DNA of 64,000 bases from Rhodoligotrophos appendicifer (GTDB lineage Bacteria; Pseudomonadota; Alphaproteobacteria; Rhizobiales; Im1). Under the pieces are notes generated by a model that was not told the DNA's origin, ran no database searches, and worked only from the letters and a program-made list of their open reading frames with translations. The DNA is taken from assembly GCF_007474605.1 (NCBI RefSeq), contig NZ_VHKL01000006.1, forward strand, positions 124,001 through 188,000. Direction: 5' to 3'. Positions 20,986 through 33,031 of this stretch are shown piece by piece (within the stretch, counting starts at the first letter, position 1; the number at the start of each line of letters is the position of its first letter). A program made the position numbers and the translations under genes.

Positions 20986-21606
20986 CTAAAGGCTGGGCCG
21001 GGCGCCTGCGCCGCGCAGGCGCGATTTCTCGCTGTTCGGCACATAGGTCTTGTAGACCAGCAGGTCGAGCGCAGCATGGTCGTCGACTGCAATGCTCGAG
21101 CGGCTGGCTAAGAGGCCGATGAGCGGCCCGGCACGGACGTCTGCTTGCGGCAAGATCTTCAACTGCGCCGTCGGGAGTGCCCCTAGCTGCGAAAGCGCCG
21201 TGGTTGCTGAGACGGTATCGCCGCGGAAGGCGACCCGCTCCGCGGCCAAAGCCAGGTCGAACGCCATGCCGTCCGGTGTATTGACCGCCAGCATGGCAGT
21301 GGACCAGATCGGGCTCTCGATCTGGACAGGATCCAGGGTCCGCAAAGCAGCAAGATCATCGAGCTGATCGCAGAGTTCAGCCCCCACAAAAAACGGCGAA
21401 TGAACGCGGTCCAGCGCGATCTCCGGCTCCAACGCCCGCAACAGCCATGGAGCCCAGTCTCCGCCGCGCGCCGCCAGCCAGCGGGCCGACCGCCCGACAT
21501 CCTCGGCAATGCCCCAGGACAGTCCTGCCCCGCGTGCGGCCTTGTAGGCAATCATCTCGATTTCATTCATCGAGAGGTCGATCATCTCACCAGCCGATGC
21601 CGTCAT
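20986..21606 (-). CDS. DUF3726 family protein
   Basis: 206-residue cytoplasmic protein of a family known only as DUF3726; the N-terminal signature MNEIEMIAYKAARGAGLSWG with EDVGRSARWL is clear. No motif of a known enzyme is visible. The ATG at 21606 has an excellent AGGAGGAGG ribosome site lying inside the end of the upstream 560-codon gene, giving a 20-base overlap and likely translational coupling. The ALDH gene follows after 20 bases. The tight linkage suggests that the DUF3726 protein and the 560-residue protein work together. Confidence 0.8.
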   Translation of the reverse strand: MTASAGEMIDLSMNEIEMIAYKAARGAGLSWGIAEDVGRSARWLAARGGDWAPWLLRALEPEIALDRVHSPFFVGAELCDQLDDLAALRTLDPVQIESPIWSTAMLAVNTPDGMAFDLALAAERVAFRGDTVSATTALSQLGALPTAQLKILPQADVRAGPLIGLLASRSSIAVDDHAALDLLVYKTYVPNSEKSRLRGAGARPSL

Positions 21607-23269
21607 CGCCCTCCTCCTGCAATTCGTCAGCAAAGGGCGCCCCTTGAAACAACCGGATCCTGAGGCTCAGATCGGATCGGGGATCGAAGGCTTCGGCTCC
21701 GAAAAAGGCGAGTTTGCAGCGCATCAGGTCGATGGGCCGCATCGTCGATCCCAGCAGGTTGTCGTGGATCTCGCCATAGGGATGGTCCGCCACCACCTGC
21801 ACCCGGCGGATTGCATGGCGCAGCTCAGGATGTGCGATGGCCACCCGGCTCACCGGCGCATCCTCCGGCCAGTCTCTCAGAATGGCTGCGAGTCGCGAGA
21901 CATCCCGGGCGAAGCCGAGCGGCAGTTCCAGGGCATCCCCCTCGTCATCCCCGCGCCACCCCAGTCGGGGCTCGAGTTTCTCCTGGGAGGTATACCAGAA
22001 GCGCGCCATGGCATCGCTGTCGGTGAAGTCGAGCGCCAGCGCCCACTCATAATGCGCCTTGATATGCCCCATCAGCTTGCCGCAGCTCATCGAGCCGACC
22101 AACCGCTGCATCTCCTCGCCGGGGACGGCCATTGCGCTGCACAGCTCATCGACGAGCGCACCATGCGGCTCAAGCAGGATGGAGACGAGATATTCCTGAG
22201 CCTCGAGACTGAGGGTCGCCTCAGCTCGGCGATAAAGGAGGTCCCAGGGCTGGAACACCTGTGCCGTAAGGTCGGCGGCCCATTCCCGGACCTGGACGAG
22301 ATCTCCCTTCAGCGTCTCGATCCGTTCGCCCTGCAGGAAATCGACCGTCACCCATTGGCGGAGCTTGTCCTGGGCGCCATCCAGCAGGTCGACGATCACC
22401 CGCTGGACCGCGGGATCGAGGCTCTGGACCGCGCGAACCCGCGCCAATGCAACCTCGCGCGCATGGATCCAGCGGTGGATCAAGGCCGGATGACGGACCA
22501 GGAAGGGCGCCATCCCGAGCCCGGTCGAATTGCCGACGCCGACTTGCCGACGCAGATGGGGATCGAGGCGCACCGCCGTGTCGGGGGCCGCCATTTTCGC
22601 GCAATGCTCGACCAGATCCACGGTGAAATTGCGGATCAGCCAGACAGTCAGCATCTCGGCGACGAAGGAGCCGCTGAACTCCGGGCGCTGCGCCAGCACG
22701 GAGTAGTCGGCGATCCCGAATTTCCCGTTTCCGTAAACGGCACTGGTGCGCAGCAGGTAGCCGATCTCTTGGATCGCGGACTCTTCTGGCTGTTGCCCGG
22801 CCGCGAGCGCCGACTTCACCAGGTCGAACAATCGCTCGCTCTTGTTGGCTCTCGCCAGCACCAGTTCTCGTTCGCTATAGCGCCGCGCCTCCTGATAGGG
22901 CACGGCGGCGGCCAGCCGGTCGAGCTCCGCTTGGTCTGGGATACCATCATAGAGGACATAACAAGTGTCCCAAGCGACGGCGATCACCCGGTCGATGCGG
23001 TCTTCCGGCGCCAGATACTGCGAGAAGGCGACGAGACTGTAGTCTCGACCGCGGATCGAGACGGTGTAGACGGCGCGGCCAAAGCCGTTTTCATCGAGAT
23101 CGAACAAGTGGCGCCGCACGTTCCAGCGCTCCCGCCGCGCGGTGCGGATCAGGTTGCGCGTGAAGCTCAACCGCGAGAGATGCATGGAGCCCAGCCGGCG
23201 CAGGCGCATGACGTGCTCCGGCGGACGCAGGGCGATTTCTGTTGTGTTCTCGATCTCGGCCAGGCTCAT
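21587..23269 (-). CDS. Conserved protein of unknown function, 560 residues
   Basis: I do not recognise this protein. It has no signal peptide or membrane helix. It begins MSLAEIENTTEIALRPPEHV and shows aromatic and charged segments such as YGNGKFGIADYSV near 185, NSTGLGMAPFLVRHP near 255 and HPYGEIHDNLLGS near 505. It starts 10 bases after the ABC ATPase stop and overlaps DUF3726 by 20 bases. The opposite strand is also open for 560 codons, but with a His/Gln/Arg-rich, protein-unlike translation. Context points to a metabolic or substrate-processing role for the imported compound. Confidence 0.75.
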   Translation of the reverse strand: MSLAEIENTTEIALRPPEHVMRLRRLGSMHLSRLSFTRNLIRTARRERWNVRRHLFDLDENGFGRAVYTVSIRGRDYSLVAFSQYLAPEDRIDRVIAVAWDTCYVLYDGIPDQAELDRLAAAVPYQEARRYSERELVLARANKSERLFDLVKSALAAGQQPEESAIQEIGYLLRTSAVYGNGKFGIADYSVLAQRPEFSGSFVAEMLTVWLIRNFTVDLVEHCAKMAAPDTAVRLDPHLRRQVGVGNSTGLGMAPFLVRHPALIHRWIHAREVALARVRAVQSLDPAVQRVIVDLLDGAQDKLRQWVTVDFLQGERIETLKGDLVQVREWAADLTAQVFQPWDLLYRRAEATLSLEAQEYLVSILLEPHGALVDELCSAMAVPGEEMQRLVGSMSCGKLMGHIKAHYEWALALDFTDSDAMARFWYTSQEKLEPRLGWRGDDEGDALELPLGFARDVSRLAAILRDWPEDAPVSRVAIAHPELRHAIRRVQVVADHPYGEIHDNLLGSTMRPIDLMRCKLAFFGAEAFDPRSDLSLRIRLFQGAPFADELQEEGDDGIGW

Positions 23270-23279
23270 GGGGTGACGC

Positions 23280-24422
23280 TCATTCCTCGAACAGGACCAT
23301 GTCGTCGGCTTTCCAACCGAGCGTGACCGGCGCGCCTTCGGAGAGCCCTTCCGTATCCTCCCGATGCAGCCTCGCCTCAACCGATCCGGCATGCGTCTGC
23401 ACGGCGACGCGCATGGCTGAGCCAGGAAACTCGATCGACGTGACCGTTCCCTGGACCATCACCTCGGCGGCCTCACCCGGTTTCACGACCCGCATGTCTT
23501 CCGGCCGCACCATGGCGTGGCGCGCGCCGTGAGCTGCGGCCCCCTCCTCCACCGGTGTCATCCTGCCGTCAACGGGGCTCACCATGATGAAGTTGGAATC
23601 GCCCAGGAAGGAAGCCACGAACCTGTTCTTCGGCGCACGATAAATCCTCGTCGGCGTATCGATCTGCTGGATGCGGCCTTCGGACATGATGGCGATGCGA
23701 TCCGACATCAACAGCGCCTCCTCCTGGTCATGGGTGACCGAAATCACGGTGAGACCAAGCCGGAGCTGGATGCGCTTGACTTCGCGCTGCAACTGCTCGC
23801 GCAGACGGCGGTCAAGAGCGCCCATGGGCTCGTCCATGAGCAGCACCGGAGGCTCGAAGACGAGGGCCCGCGCCAAGGCCACCCGCTGCTGCTGGCCACC
23901 GGAAAGCTGGGAGATGCGAAAGTCTCGACGGCTGTCCAGTTCGACCAGTTCGAGGACCGACTTGACCTTCGCCTCGATCTTCTTTCGGTCCCACCCGCGC
24001 ATCTTCAGCGGAAAGGCGACATTGTCGAAGACGTTCATATGCGGGAACAGTGCATAATTCTGGAAGACGACGCCGAGATTGCGTTTCTCCGGCGGCAGCG
24101 AGGCGATGTCCTGACCCGCGATCTGGATGGTGCCGGAAGTCGGCTCCACGAATCCCGCGATCATCATCAGCGTCGTGGATTTGCCCGAGCCACTCGCACC
24201 CAGCAGCGTGAGGAACTCGCCTTCCCGGACGGTGAAGGACACATCATCGACGGCATAAGTCTCATTATAGATTTTGCTCAGGCCCTTGACCTGGATGCTC
24301 GAGCCGATATGCGCATTGTCGATTGTTGTCGCAGCTGCCATCCGTGAATGCCCCTCCTCGACGACGTGCCTTGCCCCGACTGCATCCCATGACGGCGCAA
24401 CTGTGGAGATGTCGCTGCTCAT
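23280..24422 (-). CDS. ABC transporter ATPase, polyamine/PotA type
   Basis: 380-residue ATPase of a spermidine/putrescine-like importer. Walker A GASGSGKST, Q-loop, signature LSGGQQQR, Walker B LLMDEP and the switch His in SVTHDQEEA are all present, followed by a C-terminal TOBE_2 domain. An unusual tail of about 40 residues precedes the ABC domain; an internal Met near residue 28 is an alternative start. The ATG at 24422 overlaps the permease stop as ATGA. It energises the two permeases at 24419-26049. Confidence 0.92.
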   Translation of the reverse strand: MSSDISTVAPSWDAVGARHVVEEGHSRMAAATTIDNAHIGSSIQVKGLSKIYNETYAVDDVSFTVREGEFLTLLGASGSGKSTTLMMIAGFVEPTSGTIQIAGQDIASLPPEKRNLGVVFQNYALFPHMNVFDNVAFPLKMRGWDRKKIEAKVKSVLELVELDSRRDFRISQLSGGQQQRVALARALVFEPPVLLMDEPMGALDRRLREQLQREVKRIQLRLGLTVISVTHDQEEALLMSDRIAIMSEGRIQQIDTPTRIYRAPKNRFVASFLGDSNFIMVSPVDGRMTPVEEGAAAHGARHAMVRPEDMRVVKPGEAAEVMVQGTVTSIEFPGSAMRVAVQTHAGSVEARLHREDTEGLSEGAPVTLGWKADDMVLFEE

Positions 24423-25213
24423 GCCGTCCTCTCTCCTTTGCGCCGCAACAGTCCGACGACCAGCAGCATCACGCAGGAGACGACCACGAACAGGGTCGAT
24501 GCCGCAGCCACCGTCGGATTGATTTCGAAGCGGATGCCGCTCCACATTTGCACAGGCAGGGTCGTCGTGGCCCCGCTTGTCAGAAACAGCGCCAGCACCA
24601 GTTCGCTGAACGAGGTCAGGAAGGCGAAGGCCGCTCCGGCGGCAATGCCCGGCCAGATGATCGGCAGAGTCACGTAATAGAACGCTTTCAGCGGCGATGC
24701 ACCAAGGCTGCGTGCGCCGTGCTCCAGGCGCATGTCCATCCGCTGCAGCGCCGCGACTACATTGATAATGACGAAGGGGGTGGCGATGATCGTATGGCCG
24801 AGAACGATGCCGAAGACGCCGCCCCGCAGGCCGGTACGCGCGAGGAGGCCGTAGAGAGCGACGCCGGTGATGATGGTGGGCACGATGGTGGGCAGCAGGA
24901 AGAAGCTCATCATCAACCCGCGCGACCGCTGCGACAGCCGCACCATGCCGAGCGCGGCCAGCGTCCCCACGATGGTCGCGGCGATCATCGAGCAGACCGC
25001 CACGATGAGGCTGTTCACCGTTGCGCTTTGCCAGGCAGGGGTCTCGAAGAACGTGTGATACCACTTTGTCGAGAACGAGCGTGGCGGAAAGATGATGTAG
25101 TCTTCCCCCCCGAACGATGCGGGCAGGATGATCACGTTCGGCAGGATCATCATCACCATCGCCAGGATGACGACGAGCGTGACGGCGTGATCCAGCTTTC
25201 GCGACGAGGTCAT
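24419..25213 (-). CDS. ABC transporter permease, PotC-like
   Basis: 264-residue inner-membrane permease with about six helices and the cytoplasmic EAA loop EHGARSLGASPLKAFYYVTLP near residue 165. The first helix is followed by a periplasmic stretch with FSTKWYHTFFETPAW, typical of PotC proteins. The ATG at 25213 overlaps the preceding permease stop (ATGA). The frame continues upstream inside that gene, but only as a shadow. Confidence 0.9.
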   Translation of the reverse strand: MTSSRKLDHAVTLVVILAMVMMILPNVIILPASFGGEDYIIFPPRSFSTKWYHTFFETPAWQSATVNSLIVAVCSMIAATIVGTLAALGMVRLSQRSRGLMMSFFLLPTIVPTIITGVALYGLLARTGLRGGVFGIVLGHTIIATPFVIINVVAALQRMDMRLEHGARSLGASPLKAFYYVTLPIIWPGIAAGAAFAFLTSFSELVLALFLTSGATTTLPVQMWSGIRFEINPTVAAASTLFVVVSCVMLLVVGLLRRKGERTA

Positions 25214-26049
25214 GCCTGCCCCCAGATCGAGCCGAGCCGAAACCACCGGACGCCGATGGCATAGAGGGCCAAGGTTGTCACCAAGACGATGGTCGACAGT
25301 GCCGCGGCGAACCCCCAGTTCAGCACCTTGTTGATATTCATCTCGATCAACTGCGCGATGAAGATATCCCGCGTACCTCCCAGAATGGCGGGGATGATGA
25401 AGAAGCCGATGCTCATGATGAAGACGAGCAGAGCGCCCGCCATCACACCAGGCAGGGTCATCGGGAGATAGGCCCGCAAGAACACCTGCAGCGGAGGAGC
25501 TCCAAGGCTTCTGGCCGCCTGCAGAACCCGATTGTCGATGCGCGCCATGTTCGCGGCGACCGGCAGAATGAGATAAGGCATCATCGTCTGCACCATGCCG
25601 ATCAGCACCGCGACAATGCCGCCGCTCAGTGGCAGCGGAGTATTGATGAGACCGATGTCGAGCAGCAACGTGTTCACCGCACCTTGCGGATTCAACACGA
25701 TGAGCCAGCCATAACAGAGCACCAGCAAATTGGTCCAGAACGGCACCAGGATGAGCGCGAGCAGGACGAGCCGGGTGCGGTTGGAGCCGGTGACCAGCCG
25801 ATAGGCGACGGGGTAGCCGATCAGCACGCACAGCACGGCAGTCGCCGCACTGGTGAGGAACGTCCGCTGCAACACCTGGACATAGACGGGCCGGTCGAAG
25901 ATGCGGCTGTAATGGGTCATTGCGCCGGCATCGCCCTCGAAGCTCAGCCCCACCAGCTGCAACGTCGGCAGGATGAAGAAGGCCGCGAGCAGCAAAATCG
26001 CCGGCAACAGCAGCAGAAACGATGCGTGGCGTCGGATCAGCACGGACAT
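25210..26049 (-). CDS. ABC transporter permease, PotB-like
   Basis: 279-residue inner-membrane permease with six predicted helices and the EAA loop LQAARSLGAPPLQVFLRAYLP near residue 185. It pairs with the PotC-like subunit downstream. The start at 26049 lies 56 bases after the binding-protein stop, and the gap contains a strong hairpin. Sequence type (MIPL-like polyamine/opine permeases) matches the binding protein and ATPase. Confidence 0.9.
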   Translation of the reverse strand: MSVLIRRHASFLLLLPAILLLAAFFILPTLQLVGLSFEGDAGAMTHYSRIFDRPVYVQVLQRTFLTSAATAVLCVLIGYPVAYRLVTGSNRTRLVLLALILVPFWTNLLVLCYGWLIVLNPQGAVNTLLLDIGLINTPLPLSGGIVAVLIGMVQTMMPYLILPVAANMARIDNRVLQAARSLGAPPLQVFLRAYLPMTLPGVMAGALLVFIMSIGFFIIPAILGGTRDIFIAQLIEMNINKVLNWGFAAALSTIVLVTTLALYAIGVRWFRLGSIWGQA

Positions 26050-26066
26050 GGATCACGATCTTTGCT

Positions 26067-26105: not shown

Positions 26106-27194
26106 TCAGCTCAAGCGCCACTCGGTGAGGCGCTCGGTCGCCTCTTCCAGGTTCTTAGCCCACCATTCCTCGTTCGCCATGATGAACTTGCCCTGCTGCT
26201 GTGGGCCGCCAGAAAGGATTTTCGCGCGTTCAGGCGAAATAAACTTGAAGGCGTCCGGAACCACGGGGCCGTAAGTGTACTCATTGGCGATCGCTGCCTG
26301 GGCTTCCGGGGTCATGGTATAGGCCAGGAACTTCATGGCATTGGCCTTGTTGGGCGCACCCTTCGGCACGACCATGGATGACCAGGTCATGATGCTCTGA
26401 TTATACTGGATGCCGACCGGAGATCCGTCCTTGATCGCCGCCATGGCGCGACCGTCGGGCATGATCGACAGCGAGGCCTGGCCATCGGAGATATATTGCT
26501 GGGCCTGGGCGTTGGTCTCATAGAAGGAGATGTGGTCCTTGATTTCGGTCCATTTCTCCAGCGCCTTGTCGATATCGAGCGGATAGAGCTTGTCCGGTGC
26601 AACGCCGGCGGCCAGGAGTGCGGCCTCGAAGGCCCCGGAATTCGGCTCGCTCTGGAACGCACGCTTGCCTGGGAAGCCCGCCACGTCGTTGAAGATCGCC
26701 GTATAATCCATCGGCACCTTGTCGCCCAGCGCCTTGGTATTATAAGCCATGAGCCTCGACCACAGCACCTGGGGCACCGAATATTCGGTGACGAAGCCCT
26801 CGCCTTTCATGATCTTGGACTTGTCGATCACACTGAAGTCGAGCGGCTCGAGCAGGCCTTTTTCGGCTCCGATATATTGGAAGTCCGGATTGGTCTCCAC
26901 GACGTCCCATTCGACGGAGCCGCTTTCGACCATTGACTGGAACTTGCCGTAGTTATTGTCTTGCGCGGTCACGACCTCGATGCCCGTCGCCTTCGTGAAG
27001 GGCTCGAACCAGGCCTTCTTGATGGCAGCTTCCCAGGAGCCGCCCCATGTCGCATAGATCACCTTGCCGGCGTTCTGTGCCTTTGCGCCGTGAACCGCGG
27101 GAAAGCCCAGGCTGAGCCCCAGACCTGCAACCGCACTTGTCGTCAGAAAGGTCCGGCGCGAAAGGCCGGTCGCAGGCTTCAACGTGTCGCTCAT
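26106..27194 (-). CDS. ABC transporter substrate-binding protein, polyamine/PotD type (TAT signal)
   Basis: Periplasmic binding protein of 362 residues. The ATG at 27194, after GGAGGGAGA, gives a twin-arginine signal (LSRRTFLTTSAVAGLG) with cleavage near GAKAQ. The mature protein opens KVIYATWGGSWE, typical of spermidine/putrescine-like binding proteins, and contains TAYN-like SRLMAYNTKAL and a C-terminal WW pair (NEEWWAKN). The ligand could be a polyamine, opine or related amine; PotD-type fold alone does not decide it. Confidence 0.9.
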   Translation of the reverse strand: MSDTLKPATGLSRRTFLTTSAVAGLGLSLGFPAVHGAKAQNAGKVIYATWGGSWEAAIKKAWFEPFTKATGIEVVTAQDNNYGKFQSMVESGSVEWDVVETNPDFQYIGAEKGLLEPLDFSVIDKSKIMKGEGFVTEYSVPQVLWSRLMAYNTKALGDKVPMDYTAIFNDVAGFPGKRAFQSEPNSGAFEAALLAAGVAPDKLYPLDIDKALEKWTEIKDHISFYETNAQAQQYISDGQASLSIMPDGRAMAAIKDGSPVGIQYNQSIMTWSSMVVPKGAPNKANAMKFLAYTMTPEAQAAIANEYTYGPVVPDAFKFISPERAKILSGGPQQQGKFIMANEEWWAKNLEEATERLTEWRLS

Positions 27195-27273: not shown

Positions 27274-28278
27274 TCAAGCAGCTTTCGCCGACGCCGGTGC
27301 AGCGAGCGCCGACTGGTCGAAGACCTGCTTGTAGAGCCGGATCCAGTTACCTCCCATGATGGCCTCGACATCGGCGGTGCTGAAGCCACGACGCTGAAGC
27401 GCGTCTGCGATGTTGCCGAAGCCGCGCATCGACTGCAGCCAGGCCGGCTCGGGCACTTTGCCGGGCCGGGCGGCATTGCCGGCACCGAAATTGGTCACCC
27501 GTGACCACCGGCCCATGCGCATCCATTCGAGCTCTGGCATGCCGATATTGCGGCCATGATCCGTCCCGATGGCAATGTGCTCGACGCTGATCACATCGGC
27601 GGCGAATGCCACGATCTCCGACCATTTCTCGGCCGTAGCCGTGTAGTCGCCGCAGATATTCGCATAAGTCGCAAGGCCGATGACCCCGCCCTTCGCCGCC
27701 AGTTCCGTCATCAGCGCATTCGACTTGTTGCGCACATGCGGGATGAGGGCGGACGGATTGGCATGGGTGACCGCTACCGGCTTCTCCGAGACGGCGATGA
27801 CGTCGCGGCTGGTGCGCTCGCCCACATGCGACAGGTCGATGAGGATCCCCACGCGGTTCATCTCGAGCACCAATTCGCGACCCGCCCGGCTGATCCCGCT
27901 GTCATTGGGCTCGTAGCAGCTGCCGCCATATTCGTTCTGATTGTTGTAGGTGAGCTGCATGACGCGTACGCCCATCTCGGCGAACATCTCTGCAAAGCGT
28001 AGGCGCCCGGCCAGCGCGTTCGTGTTCTGATAGCCCACGATCAATGCGCAGCGACCCGACGCGATGATGCTCTCCGCCTCCGCACCGGAACGCGCAATGG
28101 CCACGAGATCGGCATTGGCCTGAACGATGTCGCGGAACCGGCCCAGCGCATCCATCGACTCGAGCGTGTCTTCCCAGAAACCGAGGCACGTCGTGATGCA
28201 GCTCATGCCGCCATCGCGGAGCTCTTCGAAAACCTCACGGTCAAACCGGCTGCAATTCAAGCCGTCAACAAACAGCAT
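27274..28278 (-). CDS. M19 membrane-dipeptidase-like protein lacking part of the zinc site
   Basis: 334-residue homologue of renal-type dipeptidases. Two C-terminal-half metal/substrate His residues look retained (LIDLSHVGE and AVTHANPS), as do HVRNKSNAL and IGTDHG. The N-terminal HxD zinc pair is absent: DGLNCS replaces the canonical DGHNDL. The bridging Glu segment reads VGYQNTN instead of an EGG-type motif. It has no signal peptide, so despite the name it is cytoplasmic. It may hydrolyse a non-peptide amide or use a single metal. It sits between the FAD oxidase gene and the binding protein in the operon. Confidence 0.85.
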   Translation of the reverse strand: MLFVDGLNCSRFDREVFEELRDGGMSCITTCLGFWEDTLESMDALGRFRDIVQANADLVAIARSGAEAESIIASGRCALIVGYQNTNALAGRLRFAEMFAEMGVRVMQLTYNNQNEYGGSCYEPNDSGISRAGRELVLEMNRVGILIDLSHVGERTSRDVIAVSEKPVAVTHANPSALIPHVRNKSNALMTELAAKGGVIGLATYANICGDYTATAEKWSEIVAFAADVISVEHIAIGTDHGRNIGMPELEWMRMGRWSRVTNFGAGNAARPGKVPEPAWLQSMRGFGNIADALQRRGFSTADVEAIMGGNWIRLYKQVFDQSALAAPASAKAA

Positions 28279-28354
28279 CTCAGTCTCCCTGTGGTGAGGC
28301 CCAATGGTGTGGTCAGGCCGCCACTTAAATCAATCACGTAATTCTGACGTTTGT

Positions 28355-28369
28355 TTCAGTTTTCCTGAA
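28355..28369. promoter_or_regulatory. Inverted repeat TTCAG-N5-CTGAA in a 97-base operon gap
   Basis: TTCAG (28355-28359) and CTGAA (28365-28369) lie just after the FAD-oxidoreductase stop. The surrounding gap (28279-28375) is AT-rich for this genome, so an internal promoter or an mRNA processing hairpin is possible. Confidence 0.3.
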
Positions 28370-28375
28370 CTCGAT

Positions 28376-29665
28376 TTAGCGACCGAAGATGTCAAGTACG
28401 CGATTCCAGTGCATGGCGACATTGAGCAATGGCTCGCGGAACCGATGAAACGGGATGGGTCGGATCGGGCTGGGCGGGAGGGCCCCGCTGTCGTCCTCAC
28501 CGACCAGCTTATGCGCCATCCAGGCCCCTACCCGATGGCTCAGCGCCACGCCGCGGCCATTGAAGCCGAGCACCACATGCAGCCCGGGGGCCGGCTGATG
28601 ATAATGCGGAAGATGGTCAGCGGTGATGCATACGAGCCCAGTCCAGCGATGGGTGATCTTCTGCCCATCGAGCTGTGGGAAAATGCCGTTCAAGACACGC
28701 TCGAGCACGGAATAGTCCTCGCGCCCGCCGCCGATCCCCATGGCCGAGCTGAAAGATGCCCGTCCGCCCAGGATCACCCGGTTGTCTTGCGTCTTCCGGA
28801 AATAGAGAACCAGTCTCCGGCTGTCATAGACCGTGTTGCGTCCTGGGAGGATCGTCTCTGCCAGGTTACCGCTGAGCGGCGCTGTTGCGACCTGGAAGCT
28901 GTTGACCGGCAGCAGCGATGCGGCAAGCCCGGGGATCAGCCCGTCGGTATAGCCATTGGTGGCAACCACCACCTCGCGCGCAGCCACGCTGCCACCGGCC
29001 GCCGCGAGCATCCAGCCCCCGTTCTGCGGGCTCAGCGCCGACACACGGGTTCTGGTGAAGATGCGCACGCCGGCCGACATGCAGGCCCGCGCCATTTCCC
29101 GTGCGAGATCCAGGGGATGAACGCTGCCGCCGCGCGGGTCGACGAGGCCGCCGAGATAGCGCTCAGTGCCGGTCCGACGCGCCACCGCTGACGGAGTTTG
29201 GAGCCGCTCCACGGCGATCCCTGCCTTCTCCATGCTGTCCCCGGCGGCGTTCATCACCGTCAAGGCGCGGGCGTTATGGGCAAGCCGGATCAGCCCAGGC
29301 CGTTCGAACCCGCAATTCAGCTTGAGCCGGTCAACCAGGGCGGCGAGGAAATCCGGCGCCTCCTGGCCAAGCCGGTAGAATTTGGCTCCCTCCGGACCAA
29401 ATCGCGCCGTCAGCGCGGCTTCGTCATGCTTCAGACCGGGATTGACCTGCCCGCCATTGCGACCACTGGCTCCGAAGCCGATCTCCTCGGCCTCGAGCAC
29501 AACCACGTCTCGGCCGCCTTCCGCCAGGTGCAGCGCCGTGGAGAGACCGGTAAAGCCCCCGCCCACCACCGCCACATCTGCCTTCACTGTCCCGGATAAC
29601 GGTTCGCCGGCAAACGGAGCTGTCCGGCTCGACGCCATCCAGAGACTGTCGACCCCTTCGCTCAT
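28376..29665 (-). CDS. FAD-dependent oxidoreductase, DAO / PuuB type
   Basis: 429-residue flavoenzyme with the Rossmann motif VAVVGGGFTGLSTALHLAEGG near residue 32, an E-containing strand end (VVLEAEEIG), ASGRNGGQVNPG near residue 65 and a C-terminal FAD-contact segment GFNGRGVALSHRVGAW. The family includes D-amino acid dehydrogenases and gamma-glutamylputrescine oxidase (PuuB). It would oxidise an amine to an imine/aldehyde, and the ALDH at the end of the operon could take the aldehyde. ATG at 29665 preceded by GGGGG; longer frame rejected. Confidence 0.9.
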   Translation of the reverse strand: MSEGVDSLWMASSRTAPFAGEPLSGTVKADVAVVGGGFTGLSTALHLAEGGRDVVVLEAEEIGFGASGRNGGQVNPGLKHDEAALTARFGPEGAKFYRLGQEAPDFLAALVDRLKLNCGFERPGLIRLAHNARALTVMNAAGDSMEKAGIAVERLQTPSAVARRTGTERYLGGLVDPRGGSVHPLDLAREMARACMSAGVRIFTRTRVSALSPQNGGWMLAAAGGSVAAREVVVATNGYTDGLIPGLAASLLPVNSFQVATAPLSGNLAETILPGRNTVYDSRRLVLYFRKTQDNRVILGGRASFSSAMGIGGGREDYSVLERVLNGIFPQLDGQKITHRWTGLVCITADHLPHYHQPAPGLHVVLGFNGRGVALSHRVGAWMAHKLVGEDDSGALPPSPIRPIPFHRFREPLLNVAMHWNRVLDIFGR

Positions 29666-29676
29666 GCAGCCCCCAT

Positions 29677-29722
29677 AGGCCGGGACCAGGCGTCGCGGCC
29701 GAGACGGAGCCGTCCCTGGCCT
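29677..29722. terminator. Hairpin in the gap between M24 and FAD oxidoreductase genes
   Basis: AGGCC-GGGAC (29677-29686) pairs with GTCCC-T-GGCCT (29712-29722) with one bulged T. It lies in the 104-base gap before the FAD oxidase gene and may cause partial termination or mRNA processing. Confidence 0.3.
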
Positions 29723-29769
29723 GTCTCTTTGTCCATCGTCGCCTGCAGCCGGAGCGGACTCATCGCCTT

Positions 29770-30951
29770 CTACCAGAAGCGCTTCGTGGCGTCGGTGAGC
29801 ATTTCGATGCCGGTCTCGGTCACCAGGACCGTCTCTTCGAAGTCGCCGAGATAACCATCCTGTGTGACTGTCCGCTCGAAGCACAGGACCATGCCAGGAG
29901 TGATCGGCGTCGGCTCGCCGATGGAGAGCCAGGGCGAATCCCAGCCTAAGCCGATCCCGTGGCCCAGCGCCGGAAACACGCCCTCCAGCTTGAATCCAAG
30001 CTCTTCCTGCTTGCCGAGCCCCGCCTTTGCCAGATCGCCGGCAGTCGCCCCCGGACGGATCGCGCCGATGCCGGCCTCGATGCAGGAAATTGCGGCTTCG
30101 AACAGGGCGACCTGCCGGTTGCTGGCAGGCCCGACCGCCTTGGATCGCGACAGGTCGAACACATAGCCTCCGACGATGCCGGAGATGCCGAGCCGGATCC
30201 AGTCGCCGGAGTCGAGCCGCTCGGTTGCCCCCCAGGTGGGAAAGGCATGGCGCACAGCCTTCGGATTTTCCCCGCCGCGTCCGGATGCCATGAATGAATT
30301 GTAGAGAATGCCGCCCGCCGGGACCAGCGACTGCATGCCCGCGGCGACGATCTCCGCATGGCTGGCCCCGGGTTCCGCTGCCGCCATCATGGTTTCGATC
30401 ATTCGCGAGCCGATCTGCGAGGAATATCGCAGCATCTCGATCTCCGCGGCGGATTTCACCGATCGCAGTCGGGTGAGGATGTCGTCGGCGGGCAGCAGCA
30501 CCATCTCAGGCAGTGCCGTGACGATCTTCCGATGGAAACTCACCGGAAGCGTATCCTCTCCGACGATACCGATGCGGCCACGCTCCAGCCCGGCATCCTT
30601 GAGCGCCTGGATCGCCGCCTCGATGACGAAGTCCGTATAGATGATCTCGCCATCGTCGAGATGCACCGATCCGTTGTTCGGGATATCGATGACGAGGCGT
30701 GGCCGGCCTCCGGTTGGAAGCACCAGGAACGAATGGGCACGTCCGGACCAGGCACCCGCATGGTCGGGCGTATACGGAAATGACGTGTAGAAATTCGTGA
30801 GATACATGACGTCGGCAAAGCGATCCACGGTCCCGCCGCCGCGGGAGCACACCAGCAGCGCATCGAAGCCCCCAGCCTTCGCACCGGCCACCGCGCGGGC
30901 TCGTCGCTGGGCAAATTCCTCGGCCGGTATGCTGGGCCTTGTCACGACCAT
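29770..30951 (-). CDS. M24 (creatinase/aminopeptidase P-like) family protein with altered metal site
   Basis: 393-residue pita-bread-fold protein with an N-terminal creatinase domain and a C-terminal catalytic domain from about residue 170. Of the five canonical ligands, the first Asp is replaced by Gly255 (WIRLGISGIVGG); Asp266 (YVFDLSR), His331 (LGHGIGLGW), Glu359 (CFER) and Glu372 (FEETVLVTE) remain. Creatinase and some hydrolase relatives also lack full metal sites, so it may cleave a C-N bond without metal. It is first in the ten-gene operon, starting at ATG 30951 after GGAGAGG. A TTG three bases earlier is unlikely. Confidence 0.86.
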   Translation of the reverse strand: MVVTRPSIPAEEFAQRRARAVAGAKAGGFDALLVCSRGGGTVDRFADVMYLTNFYTSFPYTPDHAGAWSGRAHSFLVLPTGGRPRLVIDIPNNGSVHLDDGEIIYTDFVIEAAIQALKDAGLERGRIGIVGEDTLPVSFHRKIVTALPEMVLLPADDILTRLRSVKSAAEIEMLRYSSQIGSRMIETMMAAAEPGASHAEIVAAGMQSLVPAGGILYNSFMASGRGGENPKAVRHAFPTWGATERLDSGDWIRLGISGIVGGYVFDLSRSKAVGPASNRQVALFEAAISCIEAGIGAIRPGATAGDLAKAGLGKQEELGFKLEGVFPALGHGIGLGWDSPWLSIGEPTPITPGMVLCFERTVTQDGYLGDFEETVLVTETGIEMLTDATKRFW

Positions 30952-31117: not shown

Positions 31118-31846
31118 ATGGCGACATCGGGGGAAAGCGTCGAATTGCGCGTCGTAAGACACGGCCTGCTCATGCCTGTGCGCATGCGCGCTGAGCTGAT
31201 GCAACAGCTGCGGTCGCTCTTGACCGACGGAGCCTTGAAGCCGGGGGATCGCCTTCCCAATGAGCGTCAGCTCTCCGAGGAGAGCGGCCTTTCGCGCACA
31301 ACGATCCGCGGCGTGCTGGCGGAGCTTGAGCGTGAGGGGTGGCTGTCCCGCCATGTAGGCCGCGGCACCTATGTCGCAGACGGGAATGGACCGGCAGCGA
31401 CGATTTCGTCAGACCCCGTCACTCCGGGTGAACTGATGGAATTTCGGGCAACCATCGAGCCTTCGATGATCGACCTGATCGTCATCAACGCCACCGATAC
31501 GCAATTGCGCGAGATCGTGGAGATCGCCCAGCGCGGGGCTGGAGTGACGACGTGGCAGCAAGCGGAGGCCGCCGACCGCCTCTTTCACGAGAAGCTCTAT
31601 CTTGCAACCGCCAATCGCGTCTTTCAGAACCTCGGCCGGACCGTGTCGACCATCCGCGGCAACGGCCCGTGGACGAAACTCAAGGAGAACGGATTTTCGA
31701 CTCAGCGCTGGAGCATCTACCAACAGGAGCACGAGGCGATCGCGCAAGCCTTGCTGCAGCGCGACGCCCGTTTGGCCCGGGACATCTTGGGCGATCACCT
31801 GCGCGGAGTTCGGCAGACTGCCAAGTCCATGATGGGCGATCTCTAG
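31118..31846 (+). CDS. GntR family (FadR/FCD-type) regulator, probable local regulator of the amine operon
   Basis: 242-residue regulator. The winged HTH spans about residues 20-88 (LMQQLRSLLTDGALKPGDRLP, NERQLSEESGLSRTTIRGVLAELE, GRGTYVADG); the helical FCD-type effector domain follows. The effector domain shows LMEFRATIEPSM and FHEKLYLATAN, near the metal-ligand motif common in FCD domains. It is divergent from the ten-gene operon and has operator-like repeats in the shared region, including over its own start. Effector unknown, presumably the imported compound or a catabolite. Confidence 0.9.
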   Translation: MATSGESVELRVVRHGLLMPVRMRAELMQQLRSLLTDGALKPGDRLPNERQLSEESGLSRTTIRGVLAELEREGWLSRHVGRGTYVADGNGPAATISSDPVTPGELMEFRATIEPSMIDLIVINATDTQLREIVEIAQRGAGVTTWQQAEAADRLFHEKLYLATANRVFQNLGRTVSTIRGNGPWTKLKENGFSTQRWSIYQQEHEAIAQALLQRDARLARDILGDHLRGVRQTAKSMMGDL

Positions 31847-31859
31847 CCTGTCTCGAGCG

Positions 31860-32468
31860 TCAGCTGACTGGCAAGCCCAGATGCGCTCGAAAGCGGTTCT
31901 TGAGGAACACCGCATCGCGCGCCGGCAGCGAGCGCGGCGGGTTCTCGGCCTTGATCTTCAAGACATAGAGCGCTGGCCCATTGGCCGGTCGCTTCAGCCT
32001 CTGGCCCAGGCTCGTCACGGCGTCGAGATCGCGCAGCACCCCGGTCTGAGTGAACCCGCAGACTTCCGCCATGGCCGCCAGATCGAGTCCGGCGCCCGTA
32101 TGACTGATCTGCATTCCGGTCTCGCCGTAATGGCCATTGTCGAGCACGGCGATGGTCAGGTTCGAAGGCTTGGCGACAGCGATGGTGGCAAGACCGCCGA
32201 GCCCCATCAATTGTTCGCCATCCCCGGTGATCACCAGCACCGACCGCTCGGGCTGCGCCTGAGCAAGCCCGAGACCCATGAGCGCGGCGCTGCCCATGGC
32301 GCCCCACAGATAGTAATTGGCCTCATGATCGCCTGCCGCATGCACGTCGTAGGTGGGCGAGCCGAGGCCGCTGACAACCAGCATCTCGCCGCGATCGGCC
32401 AGCAGTGCTGCGACGACTGCCCGCCGGTCCATCACCTGTCCTGGCGCCTGGAGAACGGGCCCTACCAT
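31860..32468 (-). CDS. TPP-dependent 2-oxoacid decarboxylase, C-terminal (TPP-binding) subunit
   Basis: 202-residue protein equal to the TPP-binding half of a decarboxylase. The ThDP motif runs from ITGDGEQLMGLGGLATIA to LDNGHYGETG near residues 80-115, the GDG...N(N/G) pattern. It resembles the beta subunit of sulfopyruvate/phosphonopyruvate decarboxylase. Its start overlaps the partner gene by 7 bases. Together they would decarboxylate a 2-oxo acid to an aldehyde. Sulfopyruvate is the best-known substrate for split enzymes, but the pair alone does not prove it. Confidence 0.85.
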   Translation of the reverse strand: MVGPVLQAPGQVMDRRAVVAALLADRGEMLVVSGLGSPTYDVHAAGDHEANYYLWGAMGSAALMGLGLAQAQPERSVLVITGDGEQLMGLGGLATIAVAKPSNLTIAVLDNGHYGETGMQISHTGAGLDLAAMAEVCGFTQTGVLRDLDAVTSLGQRLKRPANGPALYVLKIKAENPPRSLPARDAVFLKNRFRAHLGLPVS

Positions 32469-33031
32469 TTCTTGCCTCCCAACATCCGTTGCGAGAGCAG
32501 GACGGCCACCTGCTGATCTGCCTCGAGCGCGAAGGTCGCCGCCGATTCCACCATCTCGATCAGCATCTCCGGATCATCGGCCCGCATCACCTTGACGCCC
32601 ATAGCAGTCAGCGTCGCCTCGGTGGCGCGCGACATCGGCACTTGCCACGGATTGAATTCGCCCCATTCGCCGCGCATCGTCACCAGCATCAGCAGGGGAA
32701 ACCGTCCGATGGCCGAAAGCGAGGCCGTATTGATGCAGTTGCCAACGCCGCTCGACTGCATCAGCACGACGCTGCGCTTGCCTCCGAGCCAGGCACCGGC
32801 ACTGATCGCGAGCCCCTCCTCTTCCGTGGTGAGCACGGTGGCGGTGATCTCCGGATCATCCACCAGCAGCGTGATCAGCTCCGCATGTCCCGCATCCGGA
32901 ACATAGGAGGCCTGCGACACTCCGGAGCGCTTCAGAACCTCGTAGAGCCGGCGCGGCCAGCCACGGCCGGTTCCAGCATCCAGCCCCGGCTGCGCCCCGC
33001 CGCTCACAAGCCGGACATTACTTTCGCTCAT
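32462..33031 (-). CDS. TPP-dependent 2-oxoacid decarboxylase, N-terminal (PYR) subunit
   Basis: 189-residue PYR-domain protein. It carries the cofactor-activating Glu in VLTTEEEGLAISAGAWLGG near residue 70 and the segment LMQSSGVGNCINTASLSA, both typical of sulfopyruvate decarboxylase alpha-type subunits. A basic N-terminal stretch (GWPRRLYEVLKRSGV) begins the domain. It is coupled to the TPP-binding subunit. The MDR oxidoreductase gene lies 75 bases upstream on the same strand and might reduce the aldehyde produced; that is inference. Confidence 0.85.
   Translation of the reverse strand: MSESNVRLVSGGAQPGLDAGTGRGWPRRLYEVLKRSGVSQASYVPDAGHAELITLLVDDPEITATVLTTEEEGLAISAGAWLGGKRSVVLMQSSGVGNCINTASLSAIGRFPLLMLVTMRGEWGEFNPWQVPMSRATEATLTAMGVKVMRADDPEMLIEMVESAATFALEADQQVAVLLSQRMLGGKKW

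Follow-up and report, generated by a model that had tools for sequence, protein, structure and literature searches.

The peptidases prolidase and aminopeptidase P (M24B; PDB 1pv9, 3q6d and 1a16) have the M24 or pita-bread fold, whose dinuclear members bind metal through five ligands (Asp, Asp, His, Glu and Glu). Creatinase (1chm) and the ectoine hydrolase DoeA (6twk) share this fold, and the dimethylsulfoniopropionate (DMSP) lyase DddP (4b28, 4rzy) gives a precedent for other chemistry on a small zwitterion. In the M19 fold family, the closest described proteins are human DPEP1, Sco3058 (3id7), GliJ (5lwz) and a P. aeruginosa 'amidohydrolase' of M19/COG2355 (2i5g). We analysed a 64,000-nucleotide stretch of Rhodoligotrophos appendicifer (contig NZ_VHKL01000006.1, positions 124,001 to 188,000; hereafter the window), in which an M24-fold and an M19-fold protein, encoded between positions 27274 and 30951, both lack canonical metal ligands. 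Each loss is a fixed trait of a whole subfamily, and the two sites therefore appear to be remodelled and not decaying.

The window M24 protein shares with prolidase and aminopeptidase P the fold and the residues D266, H331, E359 and E372, but presents Gly for the first Asp, Asp370 for an Arg and Thr for the active-site His. With creatinase and DoeA it has in common the fold, the context of an M24 protein with a flavin oxidase and, by analogy, probably also the hydrolysis of a C-N bond in a small amine; unlike them, it keeps four metal ligands. The window M19 protein retains the beta-site His pair, the catalytic Asp and the substrate Arg of DPEP1, Sco3058 and GliJ, whereas the HxD motif, the bridging Glu and His152/Trp are replaced. 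At the level of gene order, the dimethylglycine demethylase genes dgcAB of both V. natriegens and P. aeruginosa are reported to follow a dipeptidase gene, 'pepD', and a hypothetical one, 'hp' (PMC12093977). The window resembles this pepD-hp-dgcAB operon of Vibrio and Pseudomonas, where a dipeptidase-annotated and a hypothetical gene lie beside amine demethylation genes, 'hp' being a possible counterpart, by gene setting, of an uncharacterised window protein of 562 amino acids (aa), but it has a DAO-family flavoprotein, the M24 protein and a PotABCD-like importer in place of DgcAB.

Active site of the M24 protein

The M24 protein scored 86.1 bits with the PF00557 profile, against a gathering cut-off of 23. 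Ligands of the M24 and M19 proteins were mapped by HMMER alignments to 1pv9, 3q6d and 2i5g. Gly255 is aligned to D209, and Asp266 to D220, of the P. furiosus prolidase 1pv9, so that Gly255 stands for the first Asp of the five ligands of dinuclear M24 enzymes, and D266, H331, E359 and E372 are retained. The first-pass annotation, which had read the first ligand as Gly255 with the other four present, was exact on this point.

The window clade (support 0.985) comprises 15 sequences of 49-100% identity from several alphaproteobacterial families, and was compared with its six nearest sisters (33-39%). Gly255 is found in 15/15 clade members versus Asp in 6/6 sisters, and the other four ligands are invariant throughout the clade. 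Four residues, Thr239, Ser257, Arg360 and Asp370, accompany Gly255 in all 15 sequences, the sisters having A/C at 360 and N/K at 370. Arg360 adjoins the ligand Glu359, and Asp370 lies two residues ahead of the ligand Glu372, where peptidases have Arg; the active-site His and Arg of prolidase and aminopeptidase P are thus T239 and D370 in every clade member. In E. coli aminopeptidase P the Arg at the Asp370 position, which we take to be R404, presumably touches the first Asp ligand, D260. Because of this contact, the loss of the Asp together with a charge reversal from Arg to Asp looks like a coupled rebuild of the site. The predicted tight metal site (D266, H331, E359, E372) is intact, and only the Asp private to the second metal appears lost. 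Asp370 may stand in for the lost carboxylate; other residues that would fill the metal sites, the finding that the first-pass annotation had named as contrary to its own proposal, thereby have one candidate, in the M24 protein and by sequence alignment. With its first Asp changed to Gly and its Arg to Asp, the clade would serve as a natural test of ligand relocation in a fold that is well understood.

The AlphaFold2 model of the protein has a predicted local distance difference test (pLDDT) score of 82.6. In a fold search it reached Z values of up to 37.6, to Xaa-Pro dipeptidases, with Xaa-Pro dipeptidases, DoeA and creatinase about equal (Z 35-38) and DddP at Z 31. Its scores with the NCBIfam equivalog models are far below the cut-offs, at 57.1 versus 613 for DoeA and 33.5 bits versus 600 for DddP. 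In the wider group, the distant M24 relative L107 (G913:C194) presents Trp at the first Asp column, a further ligand loss.

Active site of the M19 protein

The M19 protein scored 217.7 bits with the PF01244 profile (gathering cut-off 26). In the DPEP1 numbering that we assume here, H20, D22, E125 and H152 are replaced by Leu7, Cys9, Gln84 and Tyr111, and the residues matching H198, H219, R230 and D288 are retained as H151, H172, Arg183 and Asp240. The strand-1 motif reads VDGLNC in place of the canonical DGHND, and Gln84 of VGYQNTN occupies the Glu position. The altered HxD, the changed Glu segment and the two remaining His had been noticed in the first-pass annotation and are borne out by the alignment; Tyr111 is a further unusual position, absent from it. 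Of the features of a catalytic dipeptidase, it has both later His, the Arg and the catalytic Asp, and is without the strand-1 HxD and the bridging Glu (L7, C9, Q84). The predicted outcome is a site from which the HxD pair of the alpha metal and the bridging Glu are gone and in which the beta-site His pair, catalytic Asp and substrate-binding Arg remain.

We aligned 46 window-type sequences (the window protein and relatives) with 30 ordinary M19 proteins from the same taxonomic order, and the ligand columns divide cleanly between the two sets. The ordinary proteins present His, Asp and Glu, then His, His, Arg and Asp, in 30/30. In the window type, the Glu column is Gln in 46/46, the first His column is Leu in 42/45 readable sequences, and Asp never occurs at the first Asp column, which is mostly Tyr or Cys. 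The column of human His152 is Tyr in all 46, versus His or Trp in the ordinary set. H151, H172, R183 and D240 are retained in 46/46. The window-type group is monophyletic apart from canonical M19 (clade support 0.946). As judged from the alignment and the tree, the ligands were lost long ago and the change is fixed across the subfamily.

The best PDB match of the window protein is 2i5g (residues 2-320, 206 bits), with which it shares DGL, GFQN, CYN, both His and RNKSD; 2i5g was assigned to the subfamily by alignment, the tree having been built from the other sequences. We take 2i5g to be PA5396. A search of the literature available to us found no functional paper on 2i5g or PA5396/PA5397.

Members of the subfamily are commonly annotated as membrane dipeptidase, and 361 plasmid records match the window protein, the motif having been checked in part of these. 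Many genes of the subfamily are labelled 'dipeptidase' or 'membrane dipeptidase', yet every member checked is without the renal-type dinuclear metal site. Correcting the annotation would redirect the view of betaine and amine catabolism genes. A third altered M19 protein of the same genome, about 31% identical to that of the window, is found in L070 (1451-11464, contig C4), beside a succinate-semialdehyde dehydrogenase (SSADH)-like gene, PotABCD and DAO.

Organisation of the locus

The genes of the locus are as follows (ORF, open reading frame).

29770..30951, minus strand: M24-fold (pita-bread) hydrolase, 393 aa; intact ORF, profile match, AlphaFold2 model and fold matches
28376..29665, minus strand: DAO-family FAD-dependent amine/amino-acid oxidoreductase; profile searches
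27274..28278, minus strand: M19-fold protein, 334 aa; intact ORF, profile match and alignment
26106..27191, minus strand: PotD-like solute-binding protein of an ABC importer; profile searches
25210..26049, minus strand: PotB-like ABC permease; ORF, same neighbours in related loci
24419..25216, minus strand: second ABC permease, PotC-like, start approximate; within the ORF 24419-26056, order kept in related loci
23280..24422, minus strand: PotA-like ABC ATPase; profile searches and related loci
21587..23275, minus strand: uncharacterised 562-aa protein ('H601'); without a Pfam or NCBIfam family
20986..21633, minus strand: DUF3726-like protein, 215 aa; assigned via its homologue in L074
19538..20965, minus strand: NAD(P)-dependent aldehyde dehydrogenase; profile searches
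31118..31846, plus strand: divergent GntR/FCD-family regulator; same divergent position in L004-L006, L055, L056 and L060

On the minus strand the order is thus M24, DAO, M19, PotD-like, two permeases, PotA-like, 562-aa, DUF3726-like and aldehyde dehydrogenase. The M24, DAO and M19 genes are co-directional, and the intergenic gaps around these three enzymes are of about 80-105 base pairs (bp), which makes it plausible that the minus-strand genes from M24 onward form one operon. The GntR/FCD gene likely regulates it.

The 562-aa protein is the least known element of the locus. It gave no family match in Pfam, NCBIfam or PADLOC, and its family profile gave nothing convincing against the PDB (best E 0.26). 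An AlphaFold2 model from the single sequence was unusable (pLDDT 41). Its family occurs in Alpha-, Beta- and Gammaproteobacteria, a Natrinema plasmid carries an archaeal homologue, and 81 columns are invariant across 11 homologues of 30-68% identity. The motifs GNSTGLGMAPF and FWYxSEEKLEPRLG look enzyme-like, and the family offers a definite target for finding new enzymes. Two more homologues are encoded in the same genome without an adjoining M19 gene (L094 and L095, contigs C9 and C10), one of them beside an aldehyde dehydrogenase gene. For DUF3726, the search of the available literature found nothing.

Two separable modules

The related loci separate the window genes into two modules, one with M24, flavin oxidase and PotABCD, and the other with M19, the 562-aa protein, the DUF3726-like protein and aldehyde dehydrogenase. 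In L004-L006 and L060, members of the M24 clade are accompanied by PotABCD, DAO and a divergent GntR gene and no M19; L108-L111 likewise are without M19 and hold parts of this set. A 562-aa homologue lies within 8 kilobases (kb) of the M19 gene in 32 of the 46 M19 loci, 19 of these within 200 bp, and these pairs mostly occur without a window-type M24. Both modules are joined in the genus of the window (the window, L055 and L056).

The first-pass annotation had taken the presence of both losses in the same operon as evidence that the enzymes are neofunctionalised and not randomly decayed. Neofunctionalisation is supported, on other grounds: the substitutions are invariant across large clades, and so is the rest of each site. 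Random decay was rejected, since both ORFs are intact and the sites conserved. The co-location is not supported as the evidence, as both losses are clade-wide and older than the operon, and most members of either clade live without the other protein; a double loss as a single event in this operon was likewise rejected, both being clade traits.

The M19 cassette adjoins BCCT or ProX genes in L063, L065, L071, L091-L093 and L096. In Shinella and Ruegeria, the order is aldehyde dehydrogenase - M19 - [BCCT] - 562-aa - DUF3726 - Ldh, beside sarcosine oxidase and betaine transporters (BCCT or ProXWV), with purU in Shinella. In Sinorhizobium meliloti and Aminobacter, it is IclR - 562-aa homologue - hypothetical - M19 - PotABCD - RidA, with aminotransferase and SSADH genes in S. 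meliloti. The M19 and 562-aa cassette of S. meliloti 1021 lies on pSymB (L012). The pairing of an altered M19 with DAO and PotABCD, sometimes with an altered M24, recurs. A second cluster of the window's genome (L069, 9055-16625, contig C8) holds an altered-type M19, PotABCD, DAO and a DoeA-related M24 without ligands, in which the five ligand columns read E, T, Y, H and Q. In L074 (7901-16602), the M19, 562-aa and DUF3726 cassette is followed by genes for an ArgE-like deacetylase, NnrS and DUF1989, a set that suggests an acylated amine substrate at that locus.

Proposed function

We favour, with confidence that is about evenly balanced, an operon under GntR control for the breakdown of an imported amine, probably cationic, N-methylated or polyamine-like, in which both hydrolases are remodelled and not dead. 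The substrate class and the order of the steps are inferred, the class from the type of importer, the flavin amine oxidase, the aldehyde dehydrogenase and the betaine and sarcosine neighbourhoods of the relatives. PotABCD would bring in the amine compound, and the M24 protein would cut a C-N bond (amide, amidine or lactam), using a single metal in the tight site. The amine released by M24 would be oxidised by the DAO flavoprotein; the M19-like, 562-aa and DUF3726 proteins would perform a later hydrolysis or ring opening, and the aldehyde dehydrogenase would convert the aldehyde to the acid. The metal stoichiometries that we infer from the sequences are, for M24, a one-metal enzyme or one whose second site may be relocated, with a carboxylate regained at Asp370, and, for M19, at most one metal, the new site possibly being shaped by Gln84 and Tyr111.

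Some points weigh against this proposal. The DAO flavoprotein, whose nearest models are L-pipecolate oxidase and aminophosphonate oxidoreductase, and the aldehyde dehydrogenase both score under every NCBIfam equivalog cut-off, and therefore these two enzymes do not name the substrate. Moreover, 14 of the 46 M19 relatives, a few of them on fragmented contigs, are without a 562-aa homologue within 8 kb, so the partnership between M19 and the 562-aa protein is not obligatory.

It seems unlikely that the two proteins are ordinary peptidases with relaxed sites, both performing one-metal dipeptide hydrolysis in an operon that scavenges peptides or opines. Their Pfam scores lie far over the cut-offs, the M24 tight metal site is kept and Xaa-Pro dipeptidases are among the closest folds, but Gln replaces the metal-bridging Glu in all 46 M19 sequences, with the alpha-site pair gone, and the prolidase Arg (two residues before the ligand Glu) and active-site His have become D370 and T239 in 15/15 M24 sequences. 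The PotABCD-like importer and the recurrence of the M19 cassette beside betaine transporters also point away from peptides.

We give similarly little credence to a non-catalytic role, with one or both proteins being pseudo-enzymes that act as binding, chaperone or regulatory subunits, for example M19 as partner of the 562-aa protein. The loss of the alpha-site ligands and bridging Glu across the M19 subfamily, and its travelling with an uncharacterised partner, would fit such a role; the invariance of both His, the catalytic Asp and the substrate Arg in 46/46 M19 sequences would be needless in a scaffold, and the M24 protein keeps its four ligands in 15/15.

That the M24 protein hydrolyses a C-N bond without metal, as in creatinase or DoeA, is also improbable. 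This analogy, raised in the first-pass annotation, has in its favour the closeness of the model to DoeA (Z 36.2) and creatinase (Z 34.9), the position beside a DAO flavoprotein, which recalls creatinase with sarcosine oxidase, and the occurrence in the same genome of the L069 cluster, where a DoeA-related M24 without ligands accompanies a subfamily M19, DAO and PotABCD. For the window protein it is not supported: all 15 clade sequences keep four of the five ligands, in contrast to the protein of L069, which is where the ligand-less DoeA-like M24 sits. The M24 loop before the GD motif, which holds Thr239, is taken here to correspond to that of the creatinase catalytic His232, and no conserved His was found in it among the 15 sequences.

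Beyond the favoured catabolic operon, we tentatively advance a broader proposal, possible but rather doubtful, of two independently remodelled metallohydrolase sites in undescribed amine or betaine degradation modules: an M24 class in which Gly took the place of the first Asp and a carboxylate arose where peptidases have Arg (G255/D370), and an M19 class, with L, C/Y and Gln for HxD and Glu, that would work with a widespread enzyme-like family to which no fold or function is assigned.

An idea of sulfonate or taurine-betaine degradation, which came from a thiamine pyrophosphate (TPP) enzyme in L063, was dropped, the enzyme being nearest to ubiquinone-dependent pyruvate dehydrogenase and not to Xsc. 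In the window itself, the minus strand at 31860-33031, convergent with the GntR gene, encodes two small subunits of the TPP-enzyme type; they are similar to the alpha and beta subunits of sulfopyruvate decarboxylase, with scores below the cut-offs.

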